Below are positions 42,490 through 62,086 of a DNA stretch of 64,000 nucleotides, in pieces (position 1 is the first letter of the stretch; each line of letters begins with the position of its first letter). This stretch comes from Anaeromyxobacter paludicola. GTDB taxonomy: Bacteria; Myxococcota; Myxococcia; Myxococcales; Anaeromyxobacteraceae. Under the pieces are notes generated by a model. The model was not told the DNA's origin. It ran no database searches and was given only the letters and a program-made list of their open reading frames with translations. A program made the translations under genes and the position numbers. The DNA is taken from assembly GCF_023169965.1 (NCBI RefSeq), contig NZ_AP025592.1:1178001-1242000 (forward strand), written 5' to 3'.

Positions 42490-43194
42490 ATGCACCTCGC
42501 CCACGCACGCTACGCCGCCGCCGGCGCCGAGGAGGGGGCGCTCATCGCGCGCCACGCGGCGCTCATCGACCGCGCAGCGCGGCGGCTCGCCGCCCGCACC
42601 GGCGGGGCCGTGAGCGCCGACGACCTCTGGAGCGTGGGCGCGCTCGGCCTGCTCGAGGCGGCCCGGCGCTTCGACCCGGCCCAGAACGTCCGCTTCGAGA
42701 GCTTCGCCGAGCACCGGATCCGCGGCGCCATGCGCGACGAGATGCGCCGCATGGACCACCTGCCCCGGCGCCTGCGCGCCCGGACCGAGGAGCTCGGGCG
42801 GGCCCGGGCGCAGCTCACGAAGGACCTGCAGCGCGAGCCGACCTCCGACGAGGTCGCCGCCGCGCTGGGGCTCGCGGTGGACGAGGCCGACGGGCTCGCC
42901 GGGCTGGAGCAGCCGGTGCTCCCCATGACCTACGAGCTCGAGGGCGTGAGCGAGGAGCGGGCCGACGACCTCGTGGACCGGGCGCAGCTGCGCGGCCGGC
43001 TGGCGTGCGCCGTCGGGCAGCTCCCGGAGCGGCTCCAGCTCGTGCTCTCGCTCCACTACGTCGAGGGGCTCACCTACCGCGAGATCGCGCAGGTGCTCGA
43101 GGTGAGCGAGCCGCGGGTCTGCCAGCTCCACTCCGAGGCGGTGCGCAAGGTGCGCGGGCTCCTCGCGGGCGAGGACGGCGACGAGGGGCCGTGA
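42490..43194 (+). CDS. fliA: Flagellar sigma factor FliA (sigma-28)
   Basis: A 234-residue sigma factor for late flagellar genes. Region 2 (LWSVGALGLLEAARRFDP, FESFAEHRIRGAMRDEMRRM), region 3 and region 4 (LPERLQLVLSLHYVEGLTYR) are intact. The matching anti-sigma FlgM is at 50367-50678. Confidence 0.96.
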   Translation: MHLAHARYAAAGAEEGALIARHAALIDRAARRLAARTGGAVSADDLWSVGALGLLEAARRFDPAQNVRFESFAEHRIRGAMRDEMRRMDHLPRRLRARTEELGRARAQLTKDLQREPTSDEVAAALGLAVDEADGLAGLEQPVLPMTYELEGVSEERADDLVDRAQLRGRLACAVGQLPERLQLVLSLHYVEGLTYREIAQVLEVSEPRVCQLHSEAVRKVRGLLAGEDGDEGP

Positions 43195-44759
43195 GCCGGC
43201 CGCGCCTCTCGCTCTGCCTGCTGGTCCGGGACGAGGCGGAGCTCCTGCCCCGCTTCCTCGCCGCGGCGCGCGGGCTCTGGGACGAGCTCGTGGCCGTGGA
43301 CACCGGCTCCTCCGACGCCACCCCCGCCCTCCTCGCCGCGGCCGGCGCGCGGGTGCTGCGGCGGCCCTGGACCGGCGACTTCGCCGCCGGCCGCAACGCC
43401 GGGCTCGAGGTGGCGCGCGGAGAGTGGATCGCCTGGCTCGACCCCGACGAGCTGGTCTCGCCGGCGCTGGTGGCGGAGGCGCGGCGCGCGCTCGCCGATC
43501 CCGCCGCCGGGGCCGCCTCCCTGCGCATGCGCAACCACCTCCCGCACGGGCACGTGCGCGAGGCCCGGCTGCTGCGCCTCTTCCGCGCCGACCCGGCCAT
43601 CCGCTTCCGGCACGCCATCCACGAGGACGTGGGCCCCGACGTGGCCGCCATGCTGGCGCGCACCGGGCGCCGCCGGGTGGACCTCGAGGGGGCGGTCGAG
43701 CACCTCGGCTACGTGCGCGCCCGCGCCGCCGCCAAGGACAAGAAGGCGCGCGACGTCGCCATCCTCGACGCCTGCGTGGCGCGGGACCCGGGCGACCTGT
43801 ACGCCTGGTTCAAGCTGCTCGAGCAGGCGCGCTTCTGGGGCGATCGGGCGCTCTGGCACGCCCGCGCCGCGCCGGGGCTCGCCGCCGCCGAGCGCGACCC
43901 CGCCGCGCTCGCCCGGGCGCACTTCGGCGGCGAGTGGCTGGTGCTCCTCTCCGAGGGGCTCCACCCCGGCGACCCGGCCGCGCAGCACCGCTTCCTCGCC
44001 CTCCGCGAGCGCGCCGTCCCGCGCGCCGCCCCGCTGCTGCTGCGGCTCGGCGAGCTCGAGGAGCGGCTCGGCCGCGCCGCCGAGGCCGCCCGGCGCTTCG
44101 AGGCCTGCCTCGCCCTCGCCCCCGAGACCGAGCAGGTGCAGCTCGCGACGGTGCGGCCGACGCTCGGGCTGGCGCGCCTCGCGCTCGGGCGCGGCGACCT
44201 CCCGGCGGCCCGCCGCCGGGTGGACGCCGCCGCCTCGGCCGCGCCGCACGACCCCGAGGCCCTCGTCGCCGCGGCGAGCCTGGCCCGGATCGCCGGCGGC
44301 GCGCCGGCGGCCGCCCGCTTCGCGGAGGAGCACGCCGCCCGGCACGGCGAGTCGGAGGAGCTCCTGCAGGCGCTCGGCGAGGCGGCCCTCCTCGCCGGGG
44401 ACGCGGCGGGCGCGTGCGCGCCGCTGGCGCGGGTGGCGGGGGATCCCCCTCGCGGCCGCGGCGCGCTCCGCCTGGCCCAGGCGCTCTTCGCGGCGGGCGA
44501 GGTCGCGCGCGCCCGCGAGGCCTGCGCGGCGGTGCTCGCCGAGCTGCCCGAGGCGGCGCTCGGGATCCTGACCTGCGATCTCGCGCTCGGGCGCGACAGC
44601 GCGCTCGAGGTGGAGCTCGGGCCGGCGGAGGCGGAGGCGGCGCTGCGCGGCTGGGCCGCGGTCTCCCGGCTCGCCCCGGCGCCGGTGCGAGCCGCGCTCG
44701 CGCTCCGGGCCGAGGCGGTGGCGGAGCCGTTCCCCTGGTTCGCCGCCGCGGTCCGCTGA
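43191..44759 (+). CDS. GT2 glycosyltransferase with TPR-like C-terminal region
   Basis: A 522-residue protein. The N-terminal GT-A fold (about 1-215) has LCLLVRDEAELLPRFL, VAVDTGSSDAT and a WLDPDE metal-binding motif. The long C-terminal part consists of Ala-rich helix pairs with TPR-like spacing (LGRAAEAARRFEACLALAP, GDLPAARRRVDAAASA). GTG start overlaps the fliA stop (GTGA) with GAGGGG upstream. Being tied to the flagellar sigma gene suggests modification of flagellin or another secreted flagellar protein. Donor sugar unknown. Confidence 0.85.
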   Translation: MSRPRLSLCLLVRDEAELLPRFLAAARGLWDELVAVDTGSSDATPALLAAAGARVLRRPWTGDFAAGRNAGLEVARGEWIAWLDPDELVSPALVAEARRALADPAAGAASLRMRNHLPHGHVREARLLRLFRADPAIRFRHAIHEDVGPDVAAMLARTGRRRVDLEGAVEHLGYVRARAAAKDKKARDVAILDACVARDPGDLYAWFKLLEQARFWGDRALWHARAAPGLAAAERDPAALARAHFGGEWLVLLSEGLHPGDPAAQHRFLALRERAVPRAAPLLLRLGELEERLGRAAEAARRFEACLALAPETEQVQLATVRPTLGLARLALGRGDLPAARRRVDAAASAAPHDPEALVAAASLARIAGGAPAAARFAEEHAARHGESEELLQALGEAALLAGDAAGACAPLARVAGDPPRGRGALRLAQALFAAGEVARAREACAAVLAELPEAALGILTCDLALGRDSALEVELGPAEAEAALRGWAAVSRLAPAPVRAALALRAEAVAEPFPWFAAAVR

Positions 44760-51179: not shown

Positions 51180-52592
51180 ATGGCAGACCTGTTCTCGATC
51201 CTCTCCAACGCCAGCTCGAGCCTCGCCGCCCAGCAGGCGGCGATGGCGGTCACGAGCAACAACCTCCAGAACGCCGCCACCCCCGGCTACGCGCGCCAGC
51301 GCGCCGAGCTCCTGACCCGGCCGGCGGAGCTCGTCTCCGGCGGCGCGTGGGTGGGCCGCGGCGTGACGCTCGGCGCCGTCACCCAGGTGCGCGACCAGTT
51401 CATCGAGTCGCAGGTCCCGGCCAGCATCGCCAACGCGGCGAGCTCCGACGCCGAGGCCACCGCCCTCTCCGCCATCCACACCTTCGACCCCGCCCAGTCG
51501 GGCGGCGTCGGCGACGCCATCTCCGGCTTCTACTCCGCGCTCCGCGCCCTGTCGCAGAACCCGGGCGACAGCGGCCTGCGCGAGGCGGCGCTGGGCGCCT
51601 CGCAGAGCCTCGCCGCGGCCTTCAACCAGGCCTCGCGCGACGTCGAGACCGCGCGCACCGGCCTCGACGACCAGGCGGTGAACCTCACCGGCCAGATCAA
51701 CGCGCTCGCGAAGCAGATGGCGGACCTCAACACGCAGGTGCGGCAGGCGCGCGCCAGCGGCGGCGAGCCGAACGACCTGCTCGACGCCCGCCAGCAGGTG
51801 CTGGACCAGCTCGCCTCGCTCGTCGGCGGCCAGCCGGTGACCAGCACCGGCGGCGACGTGAACGTGATGATGGGCGGCGGCGTGGCGCTCGTCTCGGGCG
51901 GCGTGCCGGGCGTCTTCAGCAGCCAGCCCGACCCGAACAACCGCGGCCACCTGCAGCTCCTCTACGCCTCGCCGCTCGGCACCCCGGCCGCCCCCCTCGC
52001 CAACTCGGTCGCGGGCGGGCAGCTCGGCGGCACCCTCGCCGCCCGGGACGGCGCCCTCGGGAAGGCCTCCACCCAGCTCGACACGCTCGCGTTCGACCTC
52101 GCGAACCAGGTGAACGCGGTCCACCAGGCGGGCTACGGCGCCGACGGGGTCACCGGCCGGCCGCTCTTCGCCGTCGGCGCCACCAGCGCCGGCGCCGCCA
52201 GCACCATCGCCATCTCCGCCGCGGTCGGCACCAACGCCGGCGCGCTCGCGGCGGCCGGCGCCGCCACCGCGGCGAGCGGCGACGCGGACAACGTGCAGGC
52301 GCTGCTCGCGACCGAGCAGCAGGCCCTCCCCACCAGCGGGCTCGACGCCACCCGGACCCTCTCCTCGATCACCTCGAGCTTCGGGATCGCCTCCGCGCAG
52401 GCCACCTCGCTCTCCAAGCAGGACGCCGCCCTGCGCGACAACGTCAAGGCGCTGCGCGAGAGCGCGTCGGGCGTGTCGGTGGACGAGGAGCTCGTGAACA
52501 TGCAGAAGACCCAGCGCGCCTACGAGGCCATCGCCCGGGTGCTCCAGACCTCGAGCGACATGCTCGACGTCCTCATGAAGCTCGGGTCCTAA
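51180..52592 (+). CDS. flgK: Hook-filament junction protein FlgK
   Basis: A 470-residue junction protein HAP1. SNNLQNAATPGYARQRAEL near the N-terminus, SGFYSALRALSQNPGDSGLR in the middle and the C-terminal SGVSVDEELVNMQKTQRAYE are signatures. Confidence 0.96.
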   Translation: MADLFSILSNASSSLAAQQAAMAVTSNNLQNAATPGYARQRAELLTRPAELVSGGAWVGRGVTLGAVTQVRDQFIESQVPASIANAASSDAEATALSAIHTFDPAQSGGVGDAISGFYSALRALSQNPGDSGLREAALGASQSLAAAFNQASRDVETARTGLDDQAVNLTGQINALAKQMADLNTQVRQARASGGEPNDLLDARQQVLDQLASLVGGQPVTSTGGDVNVMMGGGVALVSGGVPGVFSSQPDPNNRGHLQLLYASPLGTPAAPLANSVAGGQLGGTLAARDGALGKASTQLDTLAFDLANQVNAVHQAGYGADGVTGRPLFAVGATSAGAASTIAISAAVGTNAGALAAAGAATAASGDADNVQALLATEQQALPTSGLDATRTLSSITSSFGIASAQATSLSKQDAALRDNVKALRESASGVSVDEELVNMQKTQRAYEAIARVLQTSSDMLDVLMKLGS

Positions 52593-52601
52593 GGAGCCGC
52601 C

Positions 52602-53486
52602 ATGCGCGTGAGCGACAGCCTCACCTACGACATCGCCCGCACCGGGGTCCTCGAGGCCCGCTCCCGCAACGAGGAGGCGATGCGCCTCGCCACCACCGGC
52701 CTGCGCGTCGGCCAGCCCGGCGACGACCCGGCGGCCGCCGCCCTGATGGTCACCACCCAGGCGGACCAGAAGCACTACGACTCGATCCAGTCGGTCGCCC
52801 AGCTCGCCAGCGACGAGCTCGCCAGCGCCGACTCGGCCTTCGGCTCGCTCCAGAACTTCCTCACCCGCGCCCAGCAGCTGGCCGTGCAGTTCTCGAACGG
52901 CAACTACAGCGCCTCGGATCGGGCCTCCGCCGCCACCGAGGTGGACGGCCTGCTCCAGTCCTCGGTCGCCGCGCTCAACGTCCGGGTGGGCGACCGCTAC
53001 ATCCTCGGCGGCAACGTGGACTCCGCCCCCCCCTTCGACGCCAGCGGCGCGTACCACGGCGACGCCGCGCAGCGGCAGGTAGAGATCGCCCCCGGCGTGA
53101 CGGTGAAGAGCTCGGTCCGGGCCGACGTGGCGGTGAAGGGCGCCGGCGGCGGCACCGACGTCCTCGCCACGATCCAGGCGCTCTCCACGGCGCTCAAGGC
53201 CAACGACCCCGACGCGGTCGCGGCCACGCTCGCCGGGCTCTCCGCCGGGATCTCGCAGGTCGGCGCCGCCCGCAGCCAGGCCGGGGTGTCGATGAACAGC
53301 TTCGACTCGGCGGTGGCGGCGGCCAAGCAGGCCCGGGACGACGCCACCGCGCGCACCTCGCAGCTCGGCGACGCCGACCCGATCAAGGCCGCGAGCCAGC
53401 TCGCCTCCACGCAGCACGCGCTCGAGGCCTCCCTGACCGCCACCGCGCAGGGCTTCAAGCTGACGCTGCTCGACTACCTCCGGTAG
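52602..53486 (+). CDS. flgL: Hook-filament junction protein FlgL
   Basis: A 294-residue flagellin-like junction protein HAP3. N-terminal ATTGLRVGQPGDDPAAAALM and ALNVRVGDRYILGGNVDSAP are typical; the C-terminal helix ends GFKLTLLDYL. The next gene starts on the base after its stop. Confidence 0.94.
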   Translation: MRVSDSLTYDIARTGVLEARSRNEEAMRLATTGLRVGQPGDDPAAAALMVTTQADQKHYDSIQSVAQLASDELASADSAFGSLQNFLTRAQQLAVQFSNGNYSASDRASAATEVDGLLQSSVAALNVRVGDRYILGGNVDSAPPFDASGAYHGDAAQRQVEIAPGVTVKSSVRADVAVKGAGGGTDVLATIQALSTALKANDPDAVAATLAGLSAGISQVGAARSQAGVSMNSFDSAVAAAKQARDDATARTSQLGDADPIKAASQLASTQHALEASLTATAQGFKLTLLDYLR

Positions 53487-55730
53487 ATGCCGCCCGCGCT
53501 GCCGCTCTCGCGGGCCGTGCCGGAGCCCGACGCGCCGGGCGCCCCCGCGGTGCTCCGCTGGCGGGCCCGCTGGCTCTCGCGGAGGGCGGCGCCCCCGCTC
53601 GCGGCCGCGGCCCGGCTCTTCCCGGTGCTGCTCCACGCCAGCTTCGAGCAGGCGGGGCTGCGCGAGCTCGCGCCGGGCGTGGCGGGGCTGCGCTACCGCC
53701 CGAGCTGGGGAGCGCTGGCGCGCCGCTTCGGCCTCCCCCCGCCGCACCGCGTGCAGCGCGGCGCCTGCGCGGTGGACGCCGTGCTGGCGCGGCAGGCCAC
53801 CGACCGGCTCGAGCTGGTGGTGCTCGCTCGCGGCGGCCTCCTCCCCGCCGAGTACGGCGAGCTCGAGGAGCGGATGGAGGCCGCGCGCCGCGCGCTGACC
53901 GCCGCCGACCGGCCCATCTCCGCCCGCCTCCTCGACCCGGCCCGGCTGGCCCGGCAGCGCGGCCTCTGTCACGAGCTCTCCGCCTTCGGCGCGCTGCTCG
54001 CCGGGGCGCTCCCCCCCGAGTCCTGGCGCGCGCTCGAGGCGGCCGCGGAGGCGCCGCTCGACGGCGACGCGCTCTGGGCCCTCGCGGCCGCGGCCCCCAC
54101 CGGCTTCGTGCGGCTGGCGCTCTCGGTGATGAGCGGCGGAGCGGCCCCCGCCCCGCTCACCGCCCTCTCCGCGCTGGCCCGCCGCGGGCCGGCCCGCCAC
54201 CTCGCCGATCCCTCGATCTTCCTCTGCCGCTGGGCCGCGCTGGCGGGCCTCGACGGCGCCCTCCTCGAGGAGGCGCTCGCCCACGCCGACCCGGCGCTCG
54301 CCGCCCGCGCGCTCGCGTCCTCCCCGCCCGCCCGCGGCGCGGCCGGGCCGGTCCTCTCGACGGGGCGCCGCCTCGCCATCGCCTGCGCCCGCGGCGCCCG
54401 CCGCCACCCGCCGCTCGCCCGGGCGGCCCGCGACGCCTGGCGCGGCGCCTTCGCCGCCGGCTTCCCGGTAGCGCTCCTGCCGGCGCTCCGGACGGCGCTG
54501 GAGCGCGGCGGGCCGGGCCCGGTGCCGCTCCGCGCCACCCCGAGCGGCGCCTGCTTCGAGGTGCGGCTGCCGGACGGCGCCCCCCTCTCCCGCGGCGCCA
54601 CGGCGGCGCAGGCCCGCGTGCGCGCGCTCTCCCTCGCGGCGGCGGCCCTCGGTCCGGAGCGCGTCGCCGGCGCGCTCGACCGCGCCTGGCTCCCGCTGGC
54701 CGGCCCGCTGTGCCGGCCCGCGCCCCGGCCGGCGCTGCTCCTCTCCCTCGACGGCCCGGGCGCGCCCGCCGCGCCCGGCGCCCCCCTCGACCCCCTGAAC
54801 CGCGGGCCGGACCGGAGCCTCGGCTTCGACGCCGCCCTGGCGGTCCGCGTGGCCCCGGGCCGCCGCCCCACCGCCCGCGAGCTGCCGGCCGGCGAGGCGG
54901 TCCGGCTGCTCCTCGCGACCGCCAGCGCCGGCGTCGAGGCCCAGGTCACGGCGGCGCGGACCGAGGCGCGCGCGGCCGCGGCGCGGCTCGCCGGGATCGC
55001 CGCGCTGCTGCGGGACCCGGAGCAGGGGCGGCCCGTCGCCGCCGAGGTGGCCGGCGAGGTGCTGGTCCCGGTGGGCGGGCGGGTGATGCGGTACGCGCTC
55101 CGGCGCTACCTCCGCCGGCCCCGCTTCGTCTCCCCGGACCCGGACGCGCCCGACCTGTCGCTCTCCTACGGCAGCCGCGCCACCCAGCGCTGGCGCGTGC
55201 CGGGGGTCGTCGAGGCGCGCGTCTCCCTGCTCGACCCGGGCCGCGCGGTGGTGCTCTACGGCGACGGCGACGGCCGCCAGCTGCGCGAGGAGGTCCCGCT
55301 CCCGGAGCTGGAGGAGCACCTGCGGGAGGCGCGCCTCACGCTGCTCGCCGCCGACCGCGGGGCGGTGCTGGCGATGCGGCTGTCGGAGGACCTCGAGCCG
55401 GTGCTGCGCCGGCTCCCGCCCGCCCCCCGCGCGGTCGAGGTCGACGTCTCCGGCGCGGCGCCCTTCGGGCTGGCGCTCACGGTCGGCGCGGAGCGGTTCT
55501 CCGGCCCGCACCGGTGGGAGGACGCCGCACAGGCGGCCATGTCCGCCTGGCCCATCGAGCAGCCCGGCCGCATCGCCGTCACGGCGGTGACGGCCACCCT
55601 CGCCGGAGAGCCCGTCCGCGGGCTCCTCGCGCTGCACGTCAGGTCGGTGGCGCTGCGCCGGCTGCGCGCCGGCGTCGATCGCGCGTTCCGCTCTTATCGG
55701 GATTCGCTCGCGGGCCGAAGAGCATGGTGA
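53487..55730 (+). CDS. Large protein of unknown function between flgL and flagellin
   Basis: A 747-residue protein I cannot assign. It has no signal peptide or membrane helix, about 60% of residues are Ala, Arg, Leu, Pro or Gly, and there is no obvious P-loop, zinc site or repeat. The N-terminal 300 residues look helical. The C-terminal third has alternating strands and helices (VEARVSLLDPGRAVVLYGDG, VPLPELEEHLREARLTLLAA, AAPFGLALTVGAERFSG) suggesting a folded domain. It follows flgL with no gap and no ribosome binding site, so it is probably translationally coupled. The fliC promoter candidate lies in its last codons. A late flagellar role is inferred from position only. Confidence 0.75.
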   Translation: MPPALPLSRAVPEPDAPGAPAVLRWRARWLSRRAAPPLAAAARLFPVLLHASFEQAGLRELAPGVAGLRYRPSWGALARRFGLPPPHRVQRGACAVDAVLARQATDRLELVVLARGGLLPAEYGELEERMEAARRALTAADRPISARLLDPARLARQRGLCHELSAFGALLAGALPPESWRALEAAAEAPLDGDALWALAAAAPTGFVRLALSVMSGGAAPAPLTALSALARRGPARHLADPSIFLCRWAALAGLDGALLEEALAHADPALAARALASSPPARGAAGPVLSTGRRLAIACARGARRHPPLARAARDAWRGAFAAGFPVALLPALRTALERGGPGPVPLRATPSGACFEVRLPDGAPLSRGATAAQARVRALSLAAAALGPERVAGALDRAWLPLAGPLCRPAPRPALLLSLDGPGAPAAPGAPLDPLNRGPDRSLGFDAALAVRVAPGRRPTARELPAGEAVRLLLATASAGVEAQVTAARTEARAAAARLAGIAALLRDPEQGRPVAAEVAGEVLVPVGGRVMRYALRRYLRRPRFVSPDPDAPDLSLSYGSRATQRWRVPGVVEARVSLLDPGRAVVLYGDGDGRQLREEVPLPELEEHLREARLTLLAADRGAVLAMRLSEDLEPVLRRLPPAPRAVEVDVSGAAPFGLALTVGAERFSGPHRWEDAAQAAMSAWPIEQPGRIAVTAVTATLAGEPVRGLLALHVRSVALRRLRAGVDRAFRSYRDSLAGRRAW
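55695..55721 (+). promoter_or_regulatory. Sigma-28-type promoter candidate for flagellin
   Basis: GCCGAAGA (55714-55721) matches GCCGATAA at 6 of 8 positions; 15 bp upstream TATC (55695-55698) is only a half match to TAAA. The predicted +1 near 55728 leaves a 40-nt leader containing AAGGAGAA. A FliA promoter is expected for flagellin. Confidence 0.4.
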
Positions 55731-55767: not shown

Positions 55768-56610
55768 ATGTCACTCTCGATTCGCACCAACGTCAGCTCG
55801 CTCGACGCCCAGCGGAACCTCTCCGCCACCACGAGCCAGCTCGACTCCACCCTCTCGAAGCTCTCCTCCGGCTACCGCATCACCAAGGCGTCGGACGACG
55901 CCGCCGGCCTGGGCGTCAGCGTGAGCCTCGAGGCGCAGATCAGCAGCTTCAACCAGGCCTCCCGCAACGCCAACGACGGCGTGTCGCTGGTGCAGACGGC
56001 GGAAGGCTCGATGAACGCGGTGACCAACATCCTCACCCGCATGCGCGAGCTCGCCATGGAGTCGTCCTCGGACGGCGTCGGCAACTCGCAGCGCGCCTAC
56101 ATCAACACCGAGCAGACGCAGCTCGCCAACGAGCTCGACCGCATGCAGCAGACGGCGAAGTACAACGGCTCGCAGCTGTTCGGCGCCTCCGGCTCCTCCT
56201 CGGTGCTGAACTTCCAGGTCGGCATCGACGGCACCAGCAACGACCGCATCTCGGTGGACACGTCGAAGATGTCGATCGACTCGACCAGCCTCGCCGTGAA
56301 CAGCTCGAGCGTGGACCTCTCGACCGCGACCGGCGCCCAGGCCGCGCTCGCCAAGATCGACGCCGCCATCCAGACCATCTCGTCGAACCGCTCCGCCCTC
56401 GGCGCGATCGCCAACCGGTTCCAGAGCGTCATCTCCAACATCCAGTCCACGGTCGAGAACTTCTCGGCCGCCAACAGCCGCATCAAGGACGTGGACGTGG
56501 CCGAGGAGTCGGCGAAGATGAGCCGCCTCAACATCCTGTCGCAGGCCGGCGTCTCCGTCCTCGCCCAGGCCAACCAGTCCCCGCAGCTCGCCCTCAAGCT
56601 GCTCGGGTAA
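55768..56610 (+). CDS. fliC: Flagellin
   Basis: A 280-residue filament subunit. The N-terminal D0/D1 region (LDAQRNLSATTSQLDSTLSK, LSSGYRITKASDDAAGLGVS) and C-terminal D1/D0 region (IKDVDVAEESAKMSRLNIL, VLAQANQSPQLALKLL) are classical. The middle is very short (about 150-215) and Ser/Thr-rich, so D2/D3 are essentially missing; those residues are candidate glycosylation sites. No cysteine. Strong ribosome binding site AAGGAGAA. Codon use is less GC-extreme than neighbours. Confidence 0.97.
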   Translation: MSLSIRTNVSSLDAQRNLSATTSQLDSTLSKLSSGYRITKASDDAAGLGVSVSLEAQISSFNQASRNANDGVSLVQTAEGSMNAVTNILTRMRELAMESSSDGVGNSQRAYINTEQTQLANELDRMQQTAKYNGSQLFGASGSSSVLNFQVGIDGTSNDRISVDTSKMSIDSTSLAVNSSSVDLSTATGAQAALAKIDAAIQTISSNRSALGAIANRFQSVISNIQSTVENFSAANSRIKDVDVAEESAKMSRLNILSQAGVSVLAQANQSPQLALKLLG

Positions 56611-56664: not shown

Positions 56665-56684
56665 ATTTCGTTCGGGAGGTGGAT

Positions 56685-58040
56685 GTGGCTTCCGTGTTCT
56701 CCGCCAGCGGCCTCGCCTCGGGTATGGACTGGAGCTCGATCATCGACTCGATGGTCCAGATCGAGTCCCAGCCGCTCACGCTCCTCGCGAACAAGAAGTC
56801 GGCGCTCAACGCGCAGATCTCCAAGCTCGGGGACCTCTCCTCCAAGCTGTCGGACCTCGAGAGCGCGGCCGGCGCCCTGAAGACCGGCGGCGTCCTCGGC
56901 CTCACCGCCACCACCAGCTCGACCAGCTTCAGCGCGACCGCCGGCAGCGGGGCCACCGCCGGGCGCTACTCGGTGGAGGTGAACCAGCTCGCGCAGGCCG
57001 CCAAGGCGCGCTCGCAGGGCTTCGCCTCGGGCAGCGCCGGCGTCACCGGCGGCTCGCTCACCCTCAGCGTGCAGGGCAAGGCCTACGATCCCATCACCCT
57101 CACCGACGGCGAGAGCCTGGCCGACGTCGCCTACTCCATCAACCAGCTCGGGGCCCCGGTCTCGGCGGTGGTGGTGAACGACGGGACGAACAGCTACCTC
57201 TCCCTCAACAACCGCGACACCGGCTACCCGCTCACGGGCGCCGCCGCCGACGCGCTCAAGTGGACCGAGAGCTACACCGGCAGCCAGGGCCAGGCGCTCG
57301 GGCTCGCCAGCGTCCAGGGCGCGCAGAACGCGGTCGTGACGGTGGACAAGCTCAAGTTCACCCGGCAGAGCAACACCATCAGCGACGCGCTCCCCGGGGT
57401 GACGCTCAACCTCACCGCGCAGACGCCCGGGACCACCGACGACCTCGTCCTCAACAACGACGCCACCGCCACCCAGGCGAACCTCCAGAAGTTCGTCACC
57501 GCCTACAACACGGTGATGGGCGTGCTGCAGTCGAACCTCGACGCCAGCGACGTCACCGACCGCGAGCGGAACCTCACCGGCGACAGCTCGGTCCGGATGC
57601 TCCAGATGCAGCTCCAGTCGCTCACCTCGACGCCCGTGGCGGGGCTCGTCGGCGTGCGCACCCTGGCCGACCTCGGGATCAAGACCCAGAAGGACGGCAG
57701 CCTCACCATCGACACGACGACGCTGCAGAGCGCGCTCTCGATCAACCCCGGGGCCGCCAACGCGATCTTCGCCGACCCCGTGAACGGGATGGCGAAGAAG
57801 TTCTCCGACCTGGTGGACTCCTACGTCGCGCCCGGGAGCGGCATCCTCACCCTCGACTCCCAGGCGAAGACCGACCAGGTCTCGAGCATCGACAGCCAGA
57901 CCACGCAGATGCAGGTCCGCATCGACGCCTACCGCCAGACGCTCCAGGACCAGTTCACCGCGATGGAGTCGATCATCAGCGGCCTCAAGGCGACCAGCAG
58001 CTTCCTCACCCAGCAGTCCAACCAGTCCAGCAGCAAGTGA
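56685..58040 (+). CDS. fliD: Flagellar filament cap FliD
   Basis: A 451-residue cap protein HAP2. ASGLASGMDWSSIIDSMVQI is the N-terminal signature; ATAGSGATAGRYSVEVNQLA and the C-terminal coiled coil ending near LTQQSNQSSSK are typical. GTG 56685 with GGAGGT four bases upstream is preferred over GTG 56679, whose codon overlaps that site. It lies just after the fliC terminator, so expression needs read-through or an unseen promoter. Confidence 0.93.
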   Translation: MASVFSASGLASGMDWSSIIDSMVQIESQPLTLLANKKSALNAQISKLGDLSSKLSDLESAAGALKTGGVLGLTATTSSTSFSATAGSGATAGRYSVEVNQLAQAAKARSQGFASGSAGVTGGSLTLSVQGKAYDPITLTDGESLADVAYSINQLGAPVSAVVVNDGTNSYLSLNNRDTGYPLTGAAADALKWTESYTGSQGQALGLASVQGAQNAVVTVDKLKFTRQSNTISDALPGVTLNLTAQTPGTTDDLVLNNDATATQANLQKFVTAYNTVMGVLQSNLDASDVTDRERNLTGDSSVRMLQMQLQSLTSTPVAGLVGVRTLADLGIKTQKDGSLTIDTTTLQSALSINPGAANAIFADPVNGMAKKFSDLVDSYVAPGSGILTLDSQAKTDQVSSIDSQTTQMQVRIDAYRQTLQDQFTAMESIISGLKATSSFLTQQSNQSSSK

Positions 58041-58056
58041 TCCCAGGGGAACGACC

Positions 58057-58446
58057 GTGACCCACGCCAGCCGATACCTCCAGGCCCAGCGCGAGACCGC
58101 GTCCGCCGAGCGGCTCATGGTCCTGCTCTTCCAGCGGGCCCTCCGCGAGATCCGCGCCGGCGCCGCCGCCATCGAGGCCCGCCAGCGCGCCGAGGCCAAC
58201 CGCGCCCTCACCCGCGCCGGGGAGATCGTGTCCGAGCTCCACGCCACCCTCGACACCCGGCGGGCGCCGGAGCTCTGCCAGCAGCTCGGCGAGATCTACC
58301 GCTTCGTGACCGGGCGCATCACCCTCGCCAACCTCCGGCAGGACGCGCGCCTGGCCCGGGAGGCCGAGCGCGCCTTCGCCCCCATCGTCGACGGCTTCGA
58401 GAACGCCGTCGCCTCGCTCACCACGCAGGCCCAGGGCGCCCGGTGA
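58057..58446 (+). CDS. fliS: Flagellin chaperone FliS
   Basis: A 129-residue helical export chaperone. YLQAQRETASAERLMVLLFQ matches FliS (classically YxxNxVxTASPxELIxMLYD), as does the second half with LYRFVTGRITLANLRQD-like sequence (here IYRFVTGRITLANLRQDARL). GTG start; overlaps the next gene by GTGA. Confidence 0.92.
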   Translation: MTHASRYLQAQRETASAERLMVLLFQRALREIRAGAAAIEARQRAEANRALTRAGEIVSELHATLDTRRAPELCQQLGEIYRFVTGRITLANLRQDARLAREAERAFAPIVDGFENAVASLTTQAQGAR

Positions 58447-58724
58447 GCGCCACCCGGCAGCTCCTCGAGGCCCTCGCCGAGGGGGCGCGGCGGCTCGAGG
58501 CCGGCGACGCGCCCGGCGCCTCGGCCGCCCTCGGCCGCGCCGCCGAGTCCTGCCGCGCGCTCCAGGCCGCGGGCACGCTGCTCGACGCCCAGAGCCTCGA
58601 CACCTTCCGCTTGCTCCAGGGCCGCTGCGAGGGGCTGGCGCGAGCCGCCCAGGCGAAGCTGCAGGCGGCCCTGGACGGCGCCGCCGCCGGCCGCCTCGCC
58701 CAGGCCGCCTACCGCCGCCGCTGA
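58443..58724 (+). CDS. FliT-like small helical protein
   Basis: A 93-residue Ala/Arg/Leu-rich helical protein in the place of fliT, the FliD chaperone, directly after fliS. There is no diagnostic motif, so the assignment is by size and position. GTG start overlaps fliS. Confidence 0.55.
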   Translation: MSATRQLLEALAEGARRLEAGDAPGASAALGRAAESCRALQAAGTLLDAQSLDTFRLLQGRCEGLARAAQAKLQAALDGAAAGRLAQAAYRRR

Positions 58725-58733
58725 GGTCCGCTC

Positions 58734-60479
58734 GTGGACGCACCGTCCCTGGGCACCGCCCTCGCGCTCTACCGGGCGGGCCGCCTCGCCGAGTCGCAGG
58801 CGCTCTGCGAGGAGCTGGTCGCGCGCGACCCCGGCTGCGGCGGCGCCTGGGAGCGGCTCGCGGTGATCGCCGATCGGACCGGCCGGCCCGCCGAGGCGGT
58901 GGCGCTGTACGAGCGCGCCCTGCCCCACGTGCCGCACCCCGCCGCGATCCACGCCAACCTCGGCGCGCTCTGGCTGCAGCTCGGGGAGCGCGGCCGCGCG
59001 CTCGAGCACCTGCTCCGCGCCGCGCAGGGCGGGCTCCAGGATCCGGCGCTGGCCGTGAACCTCGGCGCGCTCCTGCGCGAGCTCGGCCGGCTGGGCGACG
59101 CCGAGGCCCTGCTGCGGCTGGCGGTCGAGGCGGCCCCGGAGAGCGGCCCGGCCCACGCCCACCTCGGCCTCACGCTGGTGCTCTCGGCCCGGGTCGCGGA
59201 GGGGCTCGGCGCGCTCCGCCGCGCCGTGGCGCTCGCCCCGGAGGACGCGGCGACCCGCTCGAGCCTGCTCCTCGCCCTGCACTACTCGGACGAGGTCGGG
59301 TTCGGCGAGCTCGCCGCCGCGCACCGGGCCGCGGGCGGGCCGCCCCGCGCCCGCGAGCTCCCGCCCCCGCCCGACCGGCCGCTGCGGCTCGGGCTCCTCT
59401 CCGCCGACCTGCGCCAGCACCCGGTCCCCTCCTTCGTCGAGCCGCTGCTGGAGGCGGCCCGGGCGCGCGGGTGGGACCTCTGCTGCTATGCCTCGGTGGC
59501 GCGGCCGGACGAGGTCACCGCGCGGCTGCGGGAGCTCGCGCCGCGCTGGTGCGACGTGGCGGGCCTCTCGGACGAGGCGGCCGCGGCGCGGGTGCGCGCC
59601 GACGGCGTGGACGTCCTGCTCGAGCTCGGCGGGCACACCGCCGGGAGCCGCCTCGGCGTGCTGGCGCACCGCGCCGCCCCGCTCCAGGGGACCTGGATCG
59701 GCTACCCCGACGTCACCGGCTGCCCGGAGGTGGACCTGCGGATCACCGATCCGCGCTGCGACCCTCCCTCGGCGCCCTGGCCCGAGGTGCCGGAGCGCCC
59801 GCTCCGGCTCGCGGGCGGGTTCCTCGCCTGGCGGCCCCCCGCCGACGCGCCGCCGGTGGTCCCGCCGCCCGCGGGGCCGTTCACCTTCGGGAGCTTCAAC
59901 TCGCTCGCGAAGGTGAGCCCCGCCACGCTCGCGCTCTGGCGCGCGGCGCTCGCCGCCGTCCCCGGGAGCGAGCTCCTGGTGAAGAGCCCGGCGCTCTCCG
60001 ACGACGCCACCCGCGAGGGCTTCCGGCGGCTGGCGTCCGCGGCCGGCCTCCCGCCCGAGCGGCTGCGGCTGGCCGGCCACGCGCCGGGGGCGCGGGCGCA
60101 CCTCGCCGCCTACGGGCAGGTGCACGTGGCGCTCGACACCTTCCCCTACAACGGCACCACGACCACCTGCGAGGCGCTCTGGATGGGCGTCCCGGTGCTC
60201 TCGCTCGGCGGCGAGACCCACGCCTCCCGCGTCGGCGCGAGCCTGCTCGCGGCGGTGGGGCTCGGGGAGCTCGCCGTGCGGCGGCCGGAGGACCACGTCC
60301 GCGCGGCCGCGGCGCTGGCGGCCTCGCCGGAGCGGCTCGCCGGGCTGCGCGGCTCGCTGCGCGCGCGCCTGCGGGCCTCGCCCCTCCTCGACGGCGGCCG
60401 GCTCCTCGACGAGCTCGAGCGCGGGCTCCGCGCCTTCTGGGCCGAGCGGGCCCGCGATCCGCGCGCCCGCGTGGCCTAG
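58734..60479 (+). CDS. O-GlcNAc transferase-type glycosyltransferase (TPR + GT41)
   Basis: A 581-residue protein. TPR repeats (about 1-185, for example HPAAIHANLGALWLQLGERG) precede a two-part GT41 catalytic region (about 212-575): SADLRQHPV with the catalytic-type histidine, GTWIGYPDVTG, FTFGSFNSLAKVSP, LLVKSPAL and LDTFPYNGTTTTCEALWMGV. This is the OGT/SPY architecture, which transfers a sugar to Ser/Thr. Near fliC-fliD-fliS it is a strong candidate for flagellin O-glycosylation. GTG start. The stop shares CTAG with the convergent gene. Confidence 0.92.
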   Translation: MDAPSLGTALALYRAGRLAESQALCEELVARDPGCGGAWERLAVIADRTGRPAEAVALYERALPHVPHPAAIHANLGALWLQLGERGRALEHLLRAAQGGLQDPALAVNLGALLRELGRLGDAEALLRLAVEAAPESGPAHAHLGLTLVLSARVAEGLGALRRAVALAPEDAATRSSLLLALHYSDEVGFGELAAAHRAAGGPPRARELPPPPDRPLRLGLLSADLRQHPVPSFVEPLLEAARARGWDLCCYASVARPDEVTARLRELAPRWCDVAGLSDEAAAARVRADGVDVLLELGGHTAGSRLGVLAHRAAPLQGTWIGYPDVTGCPEVDLRITDPRCDPPSAPWPEVPERPLRLAGGFLAWRPPADAPPVVPPPAGPFTFGSFNSLAKVSPATLALWRAALAAVPGSELLVKSPALSDDATREGFRRLASAAGLPPERLRLAGHAPGARAHLAAYGQVHVALDTFPYNGTTTTCEALWMGVPVLSLGGETHASRVGASLLAAVGLGELAVRRPEDHVRAAAALAASPERLAGLRGSLRARLRASPLLDGGRLLDELERGLRAFWAERARDPRARVA

Positions 60480-62086
60480 CCGGGCGGCGCGCAGCCCGCG
60501 ACCGCGAGCATGTGATCCACCCGCGACTGCACGGTGTGCCGCCCGAGGACCGCCTCGCGGCCCCGCGCCGCCAGGGCCGCCGCGCGGTCCGGGTGCGCGA
60601 GGTAGTGCGCCACCTTCCGCTCGAGCTCCTCCAGGCTGCCGTAGCAGTCCACCTCGACGCCGACCTCGAAGAGCGCCGCCAGGTCGTCGGAGCGCTCCGC
60701 GAGCACGAAGCCGCCGCAGGCGAGCACGTCGAAGACGCGCATGGTCACGATGTCCATCTGGTAGAGCCGGCCCAGGTCCACGTTCACGGCCGACCCGCAG
60801 TAGATCCGGTCGAGCTCGTCGCCGTGGCCGGCCGGGCCCATGTAAGCGACGCCGCCCCCCTCCGCCTCCCGCCAGCCCTCGTCGCCCCAGACCCGCGGCG
60901 CGAAGCGCGCCAGCCGCCGCACCGCCGCGAGCCGCTTCAGCGCGGCGGCGATCTCCGACGCCGCGCGGACGGCCTCGGGGTGGGCGGCGGCGAGCGCCGG
61001 CCAGCGGCCCGCCAGGAGCGCCGGCACCCGGTGCGCCGAGAGGTCCCGGCTCTGCGCCTCGAGCACCCACGAGAGCGCCGCGAGGCCCGTCCCGCGCGCG
61101 CCGGGCCCGTGCGCCGCCTCCCAGGCCTCGAGGAAGGCCCGCTCGTGCCGGGCGACGTCGGGGACCATGCTCGAGCCGACCACCGAGACGGCGGCGCGGT
61201 GGCGCGCCGACTCCGGCCCCGAGACGTCCACGGGGCGGCGCCGCGCCGGATCGGCCGCCAGCGGCAGGTGCTCCACGTGCGGGAAGCCGGCGGCGCGGTA
61301 CTCGGCGACCGCGCCGCGGCGGTAGGTGAAGATGAACGACCGGCCCGGCTCGCCGCAGGGTTGGAGGTCGCTCGTGGCCGGGTCGATCTCCCAGCAGACG
61401 AGCGTCACGCCGTGGGCCGCGCAGAACTCGGCCAGCCCGTCCACGTAGTTCACGGCCGCGAGCAGCGCCGGGCGGAGCCGTCCGAGCGACCGGGAGAGCT
61501 CCTCGCGCGAGAGCCGCCCGAGGTCGAGCGTGAAGGGGGCGAGCCCGGCGCGCTCCAGGCCGGCGGCGAGGTCCTGCACGAAGAGCCCGCCGCTCGCGAG
61601 CGCCGCGACCGGCCGGTCGTGGCGCCCCTCCAGCAGGCGTCGCTCGACCCCGTACACCTGCCCGAGCAGCGGGTGGAGCACGAGCCCCCCGCGCAGCCCC
61701 CGCCGGCGCTCCTCGACCAGATCCGAGCCGAGCAGGAGCCGGAGCGTCCCCGCCCGCAGGGCCCCGGAGAGATCGTGACGCGAGAGCGCCAGCCGCATTA
61801 GCCACGGGTCGCGCTCCCAGGCGACCACGAGCCGCCCCCCGGCGAGGAGCGCGGCGGCGAGCTCCCCGAGCCCGAGCCCGAAGAGGAAGGCCTCGTCGCC
61901 AGCCTGCCGCGCGAGCCCGGCGGCGGCCTCCGGCCCGACGCGGAGCGGGAAGCGCTGCATGCCGAGGACGTACTCCGGACCCTCGGCCCCCTCGACCACG
62001 TGGTCGCTGCCGGCCGGCCAGGAGAGGCGGACCACCAGCTCCGGGTCGCGCTCCGCCAGCGCGAGCAGGTTCTTCTCGAGCGTCAA
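60476..62086 (-). CDS. CgeB/Maf-like glycosyltransferase
   Basis: A 536-residue protein. The C-terminal half is CgeB-like (GT4-type: YCGSAVNVDLGRLYQMDIVT, MRVFDVLACGGFVLAERSDD and HTVQSRVDHMLAV). The N-terminal 150 residues (FLFGLGLGELAAALLAGGRL, VVAWERDP) resemble the Rossmann-like part of flagellin-modifying Maf proteins. TTG start overlaps the stop of the MobB gene by TTGA, so it follows moeA-mobB. Located tail to tail with the OGT gene, it probably also modifies flagellin or another surface glycan. Confidence 0.78.
   Translation of the reverse strand: MTLEKNLLALAERDPELVVRLSWPAGSDHVVEGAEGPEYVLGMQRFPLRVGPEAAAGLARQAGDEAFLFGLGLGELAAALLAGGRLVVAWERDPWLMRLALSRHDLSGALRAGTLRLLLGSDLVEERRRGLRGGLVLHPLLGQVYGVERRLLEGRHDRPVAALASGGLFVQDLAAGLERAGLAPFTLDLGRLSREELSRSLGRLRPALLAAVNYVDGLAEFCAAHGVTLVCWEIDPATSDLQPCGEPGRSFIFTYRRGAVAEYRAAGFPHVEHLPLAADPARRRPVDVSGPESARHRAAVSVVGSSMVPDVARHERAFLEAWEAAHGPGARGTGLAALSWVLEAQSRDLSAHRVPALLAGRWPALAAAHPEAVRAASEIAAALKRLAAVRRLARFAPRVWGDEGWREAEGGGVAYMGPAGHGDELDRIYCGSAVNVDLGRLYQMDIVTMRVFDVLACGGFVLAERSDDLAALFEVGVEVDCYGSLEELERKVAHYLAHPDRAAALAARGREAVLGRHTVQSRVDHMLAVAGCAPPG

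Follow-up and report, generated by a model that had tools for sequence, protein, structure and literature searches.

A large open reading frame encoding 747 residues lies between flgL and fliC in the window, by which we mean the whole 64,000-nucleotide stretch of Anaeromyxobacter paludicola DNA that was analysed and whose numbering is used here. The frame and its flanking genes are as follows:

51180..52592, + strand: flgK (Pfam FlgK_D1, E 3.8e-56)
52602..53486, + strand: flgL, hook-filament junction protein (Pfam and NCBIfam TIGR02550), its stop abutting the frame at 53487
53487..55730, + strand: 747-residue protein, class I adenylate cyclase-like and without the catalytic motif (open reading frame, family and homology)
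55768..56610, + strand: flagellin gene fliC, preceded by an AAGGAG ribosome binding site of its own (Pfam Flagellin_N/C)
56679..58040, + strand: fliD, 3′ of fliC (gene order; aligns with the same-placed gene in relatives)

The last gene is presumably fliD, a name that we take from gene order and partly from general knowledge of flagellar biology. The flgL stop codon (TAG) ends at 53486 and the frame opens with ATG at 53487, in the same frame as flgL, exactly on the first base after flgL as the earlier note had it. The absence of a ribosome binding site of its own, also claimed there, was confirmed by a Shine–Dalgarno check of the 20 bases 5′ of the start, which contain no run of at least four bases of AAGGAGGTGA; AAGGAG stands 5 bases from the start in both flgL and fliC. 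The short distance to fliC held as well, with the gap measuring 37 bp and not 38. Because the start abuts the flgL stop and has no Shine–Dalgarno match, translation is probably coupled to that of flgL. The product would then be made together with the hook-filament junction proteins and just before flagellin, so that the joint production with junction proteins proposed earlier is plausible.

The frame is a real gene and not a chance GC-rich frame, as judged from its GC content by codon position (0.86, 0.63 and 0.98 at the three positions; 82% for the gene), from intact relatives and from purifying selection. It is present as a single copy in its own genome, relatives keep the whole frame at 20–47% identity to the window protein, and full-length frames were found in every complete locus of the family. 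The family gene is under purifying selection: its dN/dS was 0.11 in the closest pair of relatives, a value inside the 0.07–0.22 span seen for flgK, flgL, fliC and fliD in that pair. Two wider pairs gave 0.30 and 0.31, the gene evolving faster there than flgL and fliC. The protein has no long hydrophobic stretch (best 19-residue Kyte–Doolittle mean 1.49), in line with the cytoplasmic location previously assumed for it. It contains no lysine and a single asparagine in 747 residues, a composition that was ruled out as an oddity and is a base-composition effect, GC-rich genes being lysine-poor (two lysines in each of the nearest relatives, L018 and L019, and 2 of 581 residues in the OGT-like gene of the window) and AT-richer relatives containing lysine (up to 6.5%).

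Several further genes within or beside the flagellar cluster were recorded. A GT2 and TPR protein is encoded at 43005–44759 (+), a TPR and GT41 (O-GlcNAc-transferase-like) protein at 58734–60479 (+) and a Glyco_trans_1_2 protein at 60476–62086 (−), and these three are possible flagellin glycosylation genes. Downstream of fliS, a 93-residue protein (58443–58724, +) gave no Pfam match and has a weak relative in L019.

Searched alone, the 747-residue protein matched nothing significantly in Pfam, NCBIfam or, by sequence, the PDB. A PDB match to neuroglobin (E 0.03) was judged to be due to chance, as the family profile gives it no support. Used to scan contigs, the single protein recovered no relative and a three-row alignment recovered one (L088); as a query against the 99 genomes of the order, the protein alone gave matches in 14. 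Family profiles extended this to 28 and 29 of 195 Myxococcota genomes in two profile searches. Three weak rows were left out, namely G025 (a 25-residue match where a contig ends, E 7e-4, with fliC directly following), G033 and G187 (both E about 1e-3), and the family is solidly present in 27 of the 195 genomes.

With flanks annotated by means of the window's own flagellar proteins, the family gene was found between flgL and fliC in all 27 genomes, 20 of them with both flanks on one contig and the other seven cut by contig ends, the visible part agreeing with this position. The earlier note had made much depend on whether the place beside fliC is conserved in relatives, and conserved it is, over several taxonomic families. 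The distance from the end of the flgL match to the gene start is 0 to 39 bases, and close coupling to flgL thus appears common to the family. A second copy occurs in G171 (L069:5718–9485, −), where the family sequence forms the C-terminal part of a protein with a Zn ribbon and a Ser/Thr kinase domain (Pfam PF00069, E 2.3e-48). This fusion gene lies outside any flagellar cluster and adjoins TldD/PmbA-type and lamin-tail-domain genes.

A likeness to the E. coli-type adenylate cyclase was first seen by eye, and one of ten relatives then gave a sub-threshold Pfam match of the same kind. Among 19 family members searched against Pfam, the best match was to the class I adenylate cyclase, with one member reaching 14.5 bits for PF12633 (Adenyl_cycl_N; E 0.035) against a cut-off of 27. 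The NCBIfam class I adenylate cyclase model also matched one of the 19 below its cut-off (E 0.056), and was, with one other, the only NCBIfam family to match any member. None of the 19 exceeded the curated cut-off for PF12633 or PF01295 (Adenylate_cycl), nor that of the NCBIfam model, unlike canonical class I cyclases.

Profile–profile comparison gave a far clearer signal. Aligned by hhalign with a profile of four cyclases (E. coli cyaA and three canonical Myxococcota class I cyclases), the family scored 64.6 (E 1e-6, probability 91) in a colinear match over 693 columns, against maxima of 22.1 for 60 column-shuffled cyclase alignments and 18.9 for nine unrelated flagellar protein alignments, and 15.5 for the reversed alignment. 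The score remained at 60.1 without the Pfam-matching member and at 55.8 without the E. coli sequence. The long clade alone scored 67.7 and the eight-member short clade 40.0, the latter over the N-terminal part only, while E. coli CyaA alone against the family scored 27.9. Most of the signal comes from the N-terminal part (63.5); the region beyond the first 160 residues scored 38.6, still above all controls, and the columns from 561 alone 30.2 (E 0.0068) against the shuffle maximum of 22.1. Two parts of the protein can thus be placed on the window:

53529..54056, + strand: N-terminal part, residues 15–190, matching the N-terminal nucleotidyltransferase-type region of the cyclases (hhalign residues 18–158, merged alignment)
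55167..55727, + strand: C-terminal part, from about residue 561, matching the C-terminal region of the Myxococcota cyclases (class I), weakly when taken alone

An HMM built from the long clade's N-terminal part was run on 3367 distinct open reading frames from 107 sources. The first five rows outside the family were all class I cyclases (E 9e-6 to 0.0034; three distinct genes including E. coli CyaA, two of the genes being present twice), and the next non-cyclase frame followed at E 0.056. The third Myxococcota cyclase, L106, reached only 0.12, and the full-length HMM misranked it (E 1.9 in one profile). At the residue level, 29 positions are conserved in at least 17 of the 19 family rows, and 21 of these align to an E. 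coli CyaA residue; four are also invariant in the four cyclases (R26/R19, P46/P39, G64/G60 and G173/G195, family/E. coli), and 70 of the 613 aligned positions are invariant overall. The resemblance to class I cyclases is one of a colinear N-terminal 140 residues sharing four invariant residues, with the rest of the protein colinear but weak. That the family is homologous to adenylate cyclases of class I, the E. coli type, is well supported by these sequence comparisons. The earlier statement that no family was recognisable stands for searches with the single sequence, but not for family profiles, which reveal the cyclase relation.

Nucleotidyltransferases need a GS motif and paired acidic residues. 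In E. coli CyaA, we take G102 and S103 to be the GS motif and D114 and D116 to be the paired metal-binding aspartates; all four are kept in the four canonical cyclases. By residue mapping on the merged alignment, the GS loop is deleted in the family, and neither the G-S pair nor D114 is kept in any of the 19 rows, D114 being replaced by R, G, A, P or V. In the window protein, the GS loop and the first metal aspartate are missing between residues ~103 and 107. The segment GE.CGST...EEFYRT is likewise deleted in 19 of 19 rows, with E185–R188 unaligned and most of E. coli ~166–189 missing, and the central region is shorter than in canonical cyclases. With the GS loop and the first metal aspartate absent from all 19 aligned members, the proteins of the family are very probably pseudo-cyclases, not cyclases. 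An acidic residue (D or E) does occupy the second metal position, equivalent to D116, in 17 of the 19 rows, so some binding or chemistry might still take place.

Structure prediction contributed little. AlphaFold2 run with two sequences gave a mean pLDDT of 39 for the full-length protein and, at low confidence, 53 for residues 15–190. The order of elements in this weak model is helix, helix, strand, strand, helix, strand, helix, the strands and a helix being its best part, and the strand-strand-helix-strand order would fit a nucleotidyltransferase fold, although the top fold matches are other proteins. Foldseek found no match for it at E up to 0.001 (best E 8e-3, to another protein). In VIA-align 2, where Z below 8 may reflect a common arrangement only, the first matches were a TcdB mini-binder complex (Z 7.2), the MafB2-CT/MafI2 complex (Z 6.3) and CzrB (Z 6.2), followed by ribosomal S3-type and magnetosome MamB/MamM domains (Z 5.5 to 6), and no nucleotidyltransferase was noticed among the best 50 matches listed for this pLDDT-53 model. 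An RNA-binding, KH-like reading was set aside as the model is too weak for it. A sequence search of the PDB returned no class I cyclase structure.

A second line of evidence, independent of sequence comparison, came from what else occupies the slot between flgL and fliC. Canonical class I cyclases exceeded the cut-off in only three of 193 genomes, all from one Myxococcota family, and all three genes lie in the order flgL-csrA-fliW-cyaA-fliC; each exceeds the cut-off for the N-terminal domain or for both cyclase domains:

L104:6689–10158: canonical class I adenylate cyclase between fliW and fliC
L105:6402–9839: canonical class I adenylate cyclase between fliW and fliC
L106:6618–9434: canonical class I adenylate cyclase between fliW and fliC

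The enzyme and the degenerate family thus share a slot and are positional counterparts. This placement of a canonical cyclase suggests a link between cAMP and the flagellar late genes; a search of the open-licence PMC literature found no paper placing a class I cyclase within a flagellar operon. The earlier note had also held that clear similarity to a known, unrelated family would tell against its reading. A similarity to a known family was indeed found, but the canonical cyclase itself sits in the flagellar slot in three genomes.

Forty-four genomes were scored as FlgL-positive (a full FlgL match, E below 1e-30), of which 26 carry the family, three a canonical class I cyclase and 15 neither, so the family is not essential for the flagellum in general. 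G049 has the family gene on a contig that does not reach flgL, and G025, G170, G186 and G190, with short flagellin-like matches only, also stand outside the 44. Among the 15 genomes with neither gene, fliC directly follows flgL in six, including all three sampled flagellated members of one sister genus, and the slot holds csrA and/or fliW in three; in four, no fliC was seen downstream of flgL on the stretch examined. In the remaining two it holds a hybrid histidine kinase:

L089:4709–6640, − strand: hybrid histidine kinase in the flgL-fliC slot (response regulator, HisKA and HATPase_c domains)
L097:4031–5497, − strand: hybrid histidine kinase in the flgL-fliC slot (response regulator, HisKA and HATPase_c domains)

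These kinases, of signalling type and in the same slot as the family but with unrelated domains, indicate that the slot repeatedly holds regulators. CsrA and FliW were each over cut-off in nine of 195 genomes and matched in none of the 27 family genomes; neither PF02623 (FliW) nor PF02599 (CsrA) was matched by the window protein or anywhere in its own genome. Among the six genomes in which fliC directly follows flgL, CsrA or FliW occurs only in G116.

Taken together, the family is probably, in our moderately confident reading of the sequence evidence, a non-catalytic class I cyclase homologue of the Myxococcota flgL-fliC slot, acting as a FlgL-coupled regulator or scaffold of the step from junction to filament. 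Its conserved place in the flagellar cluster suggests a regulatory role in flagellum building. A signalling role is indicated by the occupants of the slot in relatives (csrA, fliW, an active cyclase or a hybrid histidine kinase) and by the kinase fusion seen in one relative. Lacking the nucleotidyltransferase active site, the protein most likely makes no cAMP and would act by binding, its remnant cyclase domain and C-terminal half forming a putative cytosolic regulator or scaffold that may adjust either how much flagellin is supplied or how assembly passes from junction to filament. In another bacterium, flagellar motility is reported to respond to cAMP made by a class I cyclase (PMC13079933), which makes a cyclase–flagellum link plausible and has no bearing on the family itself.

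A broader evolutionary version of this reading is tentative and, on balance, rather doubtful: in an ancestral Myxococcota flagellar operon, an active class I cyclase encoded between flgL and fliC would have tied filament building to cAMP, and the enzyme would have died in several lineages and been kept, in genomes without CsrA-FliW, as a pseudo-cyclase controlling flagellin supply directly.

CsrA-FliW is a known flagellin homeostasis module (PMC6529632), and some Myxococcota encode it between flgL and fliC. A narrower form of the preferred explanation, which we regard as unlikely, has the family protein replace this module as a regulator of flagellin supply, perhaps through binding to flagellin or to the flagellin mRNA. 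In its favour, neither CsrA nor FliW was matched in any of the 27 family genomes, whereas the slot holds csrA-fliW in all three canonical-cyclase genomes, csrA and/or fliW in three others and hybrid histidine kinases in two more, and coupling to flgL would give the right timing. However, no RNA-binding domain and no sequence relation to FliW or CsrA were found, and in at least six FlgL-positive genomes fliC directly follows flgL, only G116 among them having CsrA or FliW, so that flagellated relatives with neither the family gene nor the module show that no replacement is needed. The protein may nevertheless act in flagellin supply, which would be a functional likeness to CsrA-FliW if correct.

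It is improbable that the protein is still an enzyme, derived from a class I cyclase by rearrangement of the active site, that makes a cyclic nucleotide or transfers a nucleotide to flagellin or another partner. The acidic residue kept at the second metal position is compatible with this, as is the host genome, which as a whole has no match to class I (PF12633) or class III (PF00211) cyclases, such that any cAMP made there would need a non-standard enzyme; against it, the GS loop, the first aspartate and most of the ~166–189 segment are missing from the aligned family. Also improbable is an enzyme of flagellin modification or quality control from an unrecognised family unrelated to cyclases, close to the quality-control or modification factor that the earlier note had suggested. 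The position between flgL and fliC would suit it, and the two glycosyltransferase genes just downstream (58734–62086) mean that flagellin here may be modified. Yet none of the 19 members matched a flagellin-modifying-enzyme family in Pfam or NCBIfam (E up to 1), and the profile evidence points to class I cyclases; for a cyclase homologue without the catalytic motif, regulation or scaffolding is likelier than chemistry on flagellin. That the gene is a decaying or carried-along cyclase leftover without function is very improbable, since the lost active site, its absence from some flagellated relatives and its faster evolution than flgL and fliC in the two wider pairs are set against intact frames, dN/dS well below 1 and the same position in all 27 genomes, which span several families.

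The preferred reading, a non-catalytic cyclase homologue acting as a FlgL-coupled regulator or scaffold, bears on how such enzymes are seen. Class I adenylate cyclases are usually viewed as stand-alone metabolic sensors. In the Myxococcota, an active cyclase (three genomes) and its putatively dead relative (27 genomes) hold the same place in the flagellar late-gene cluster, and the latter most likely represents a previously unnamed family of class I cyclase pseudo-enzymes with a fixed place in flagellar clusters. If this is true, a second-messenger cyclase has given rise to a pseudo-enzyme family, and there would be a fixed genetic link between the cyclase lineage and the flagellar switch from junction to filament. 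The family would then also be a concrete candidate for balancing flagellin supply in flagellated Myxococcota without CsrA-FliW.
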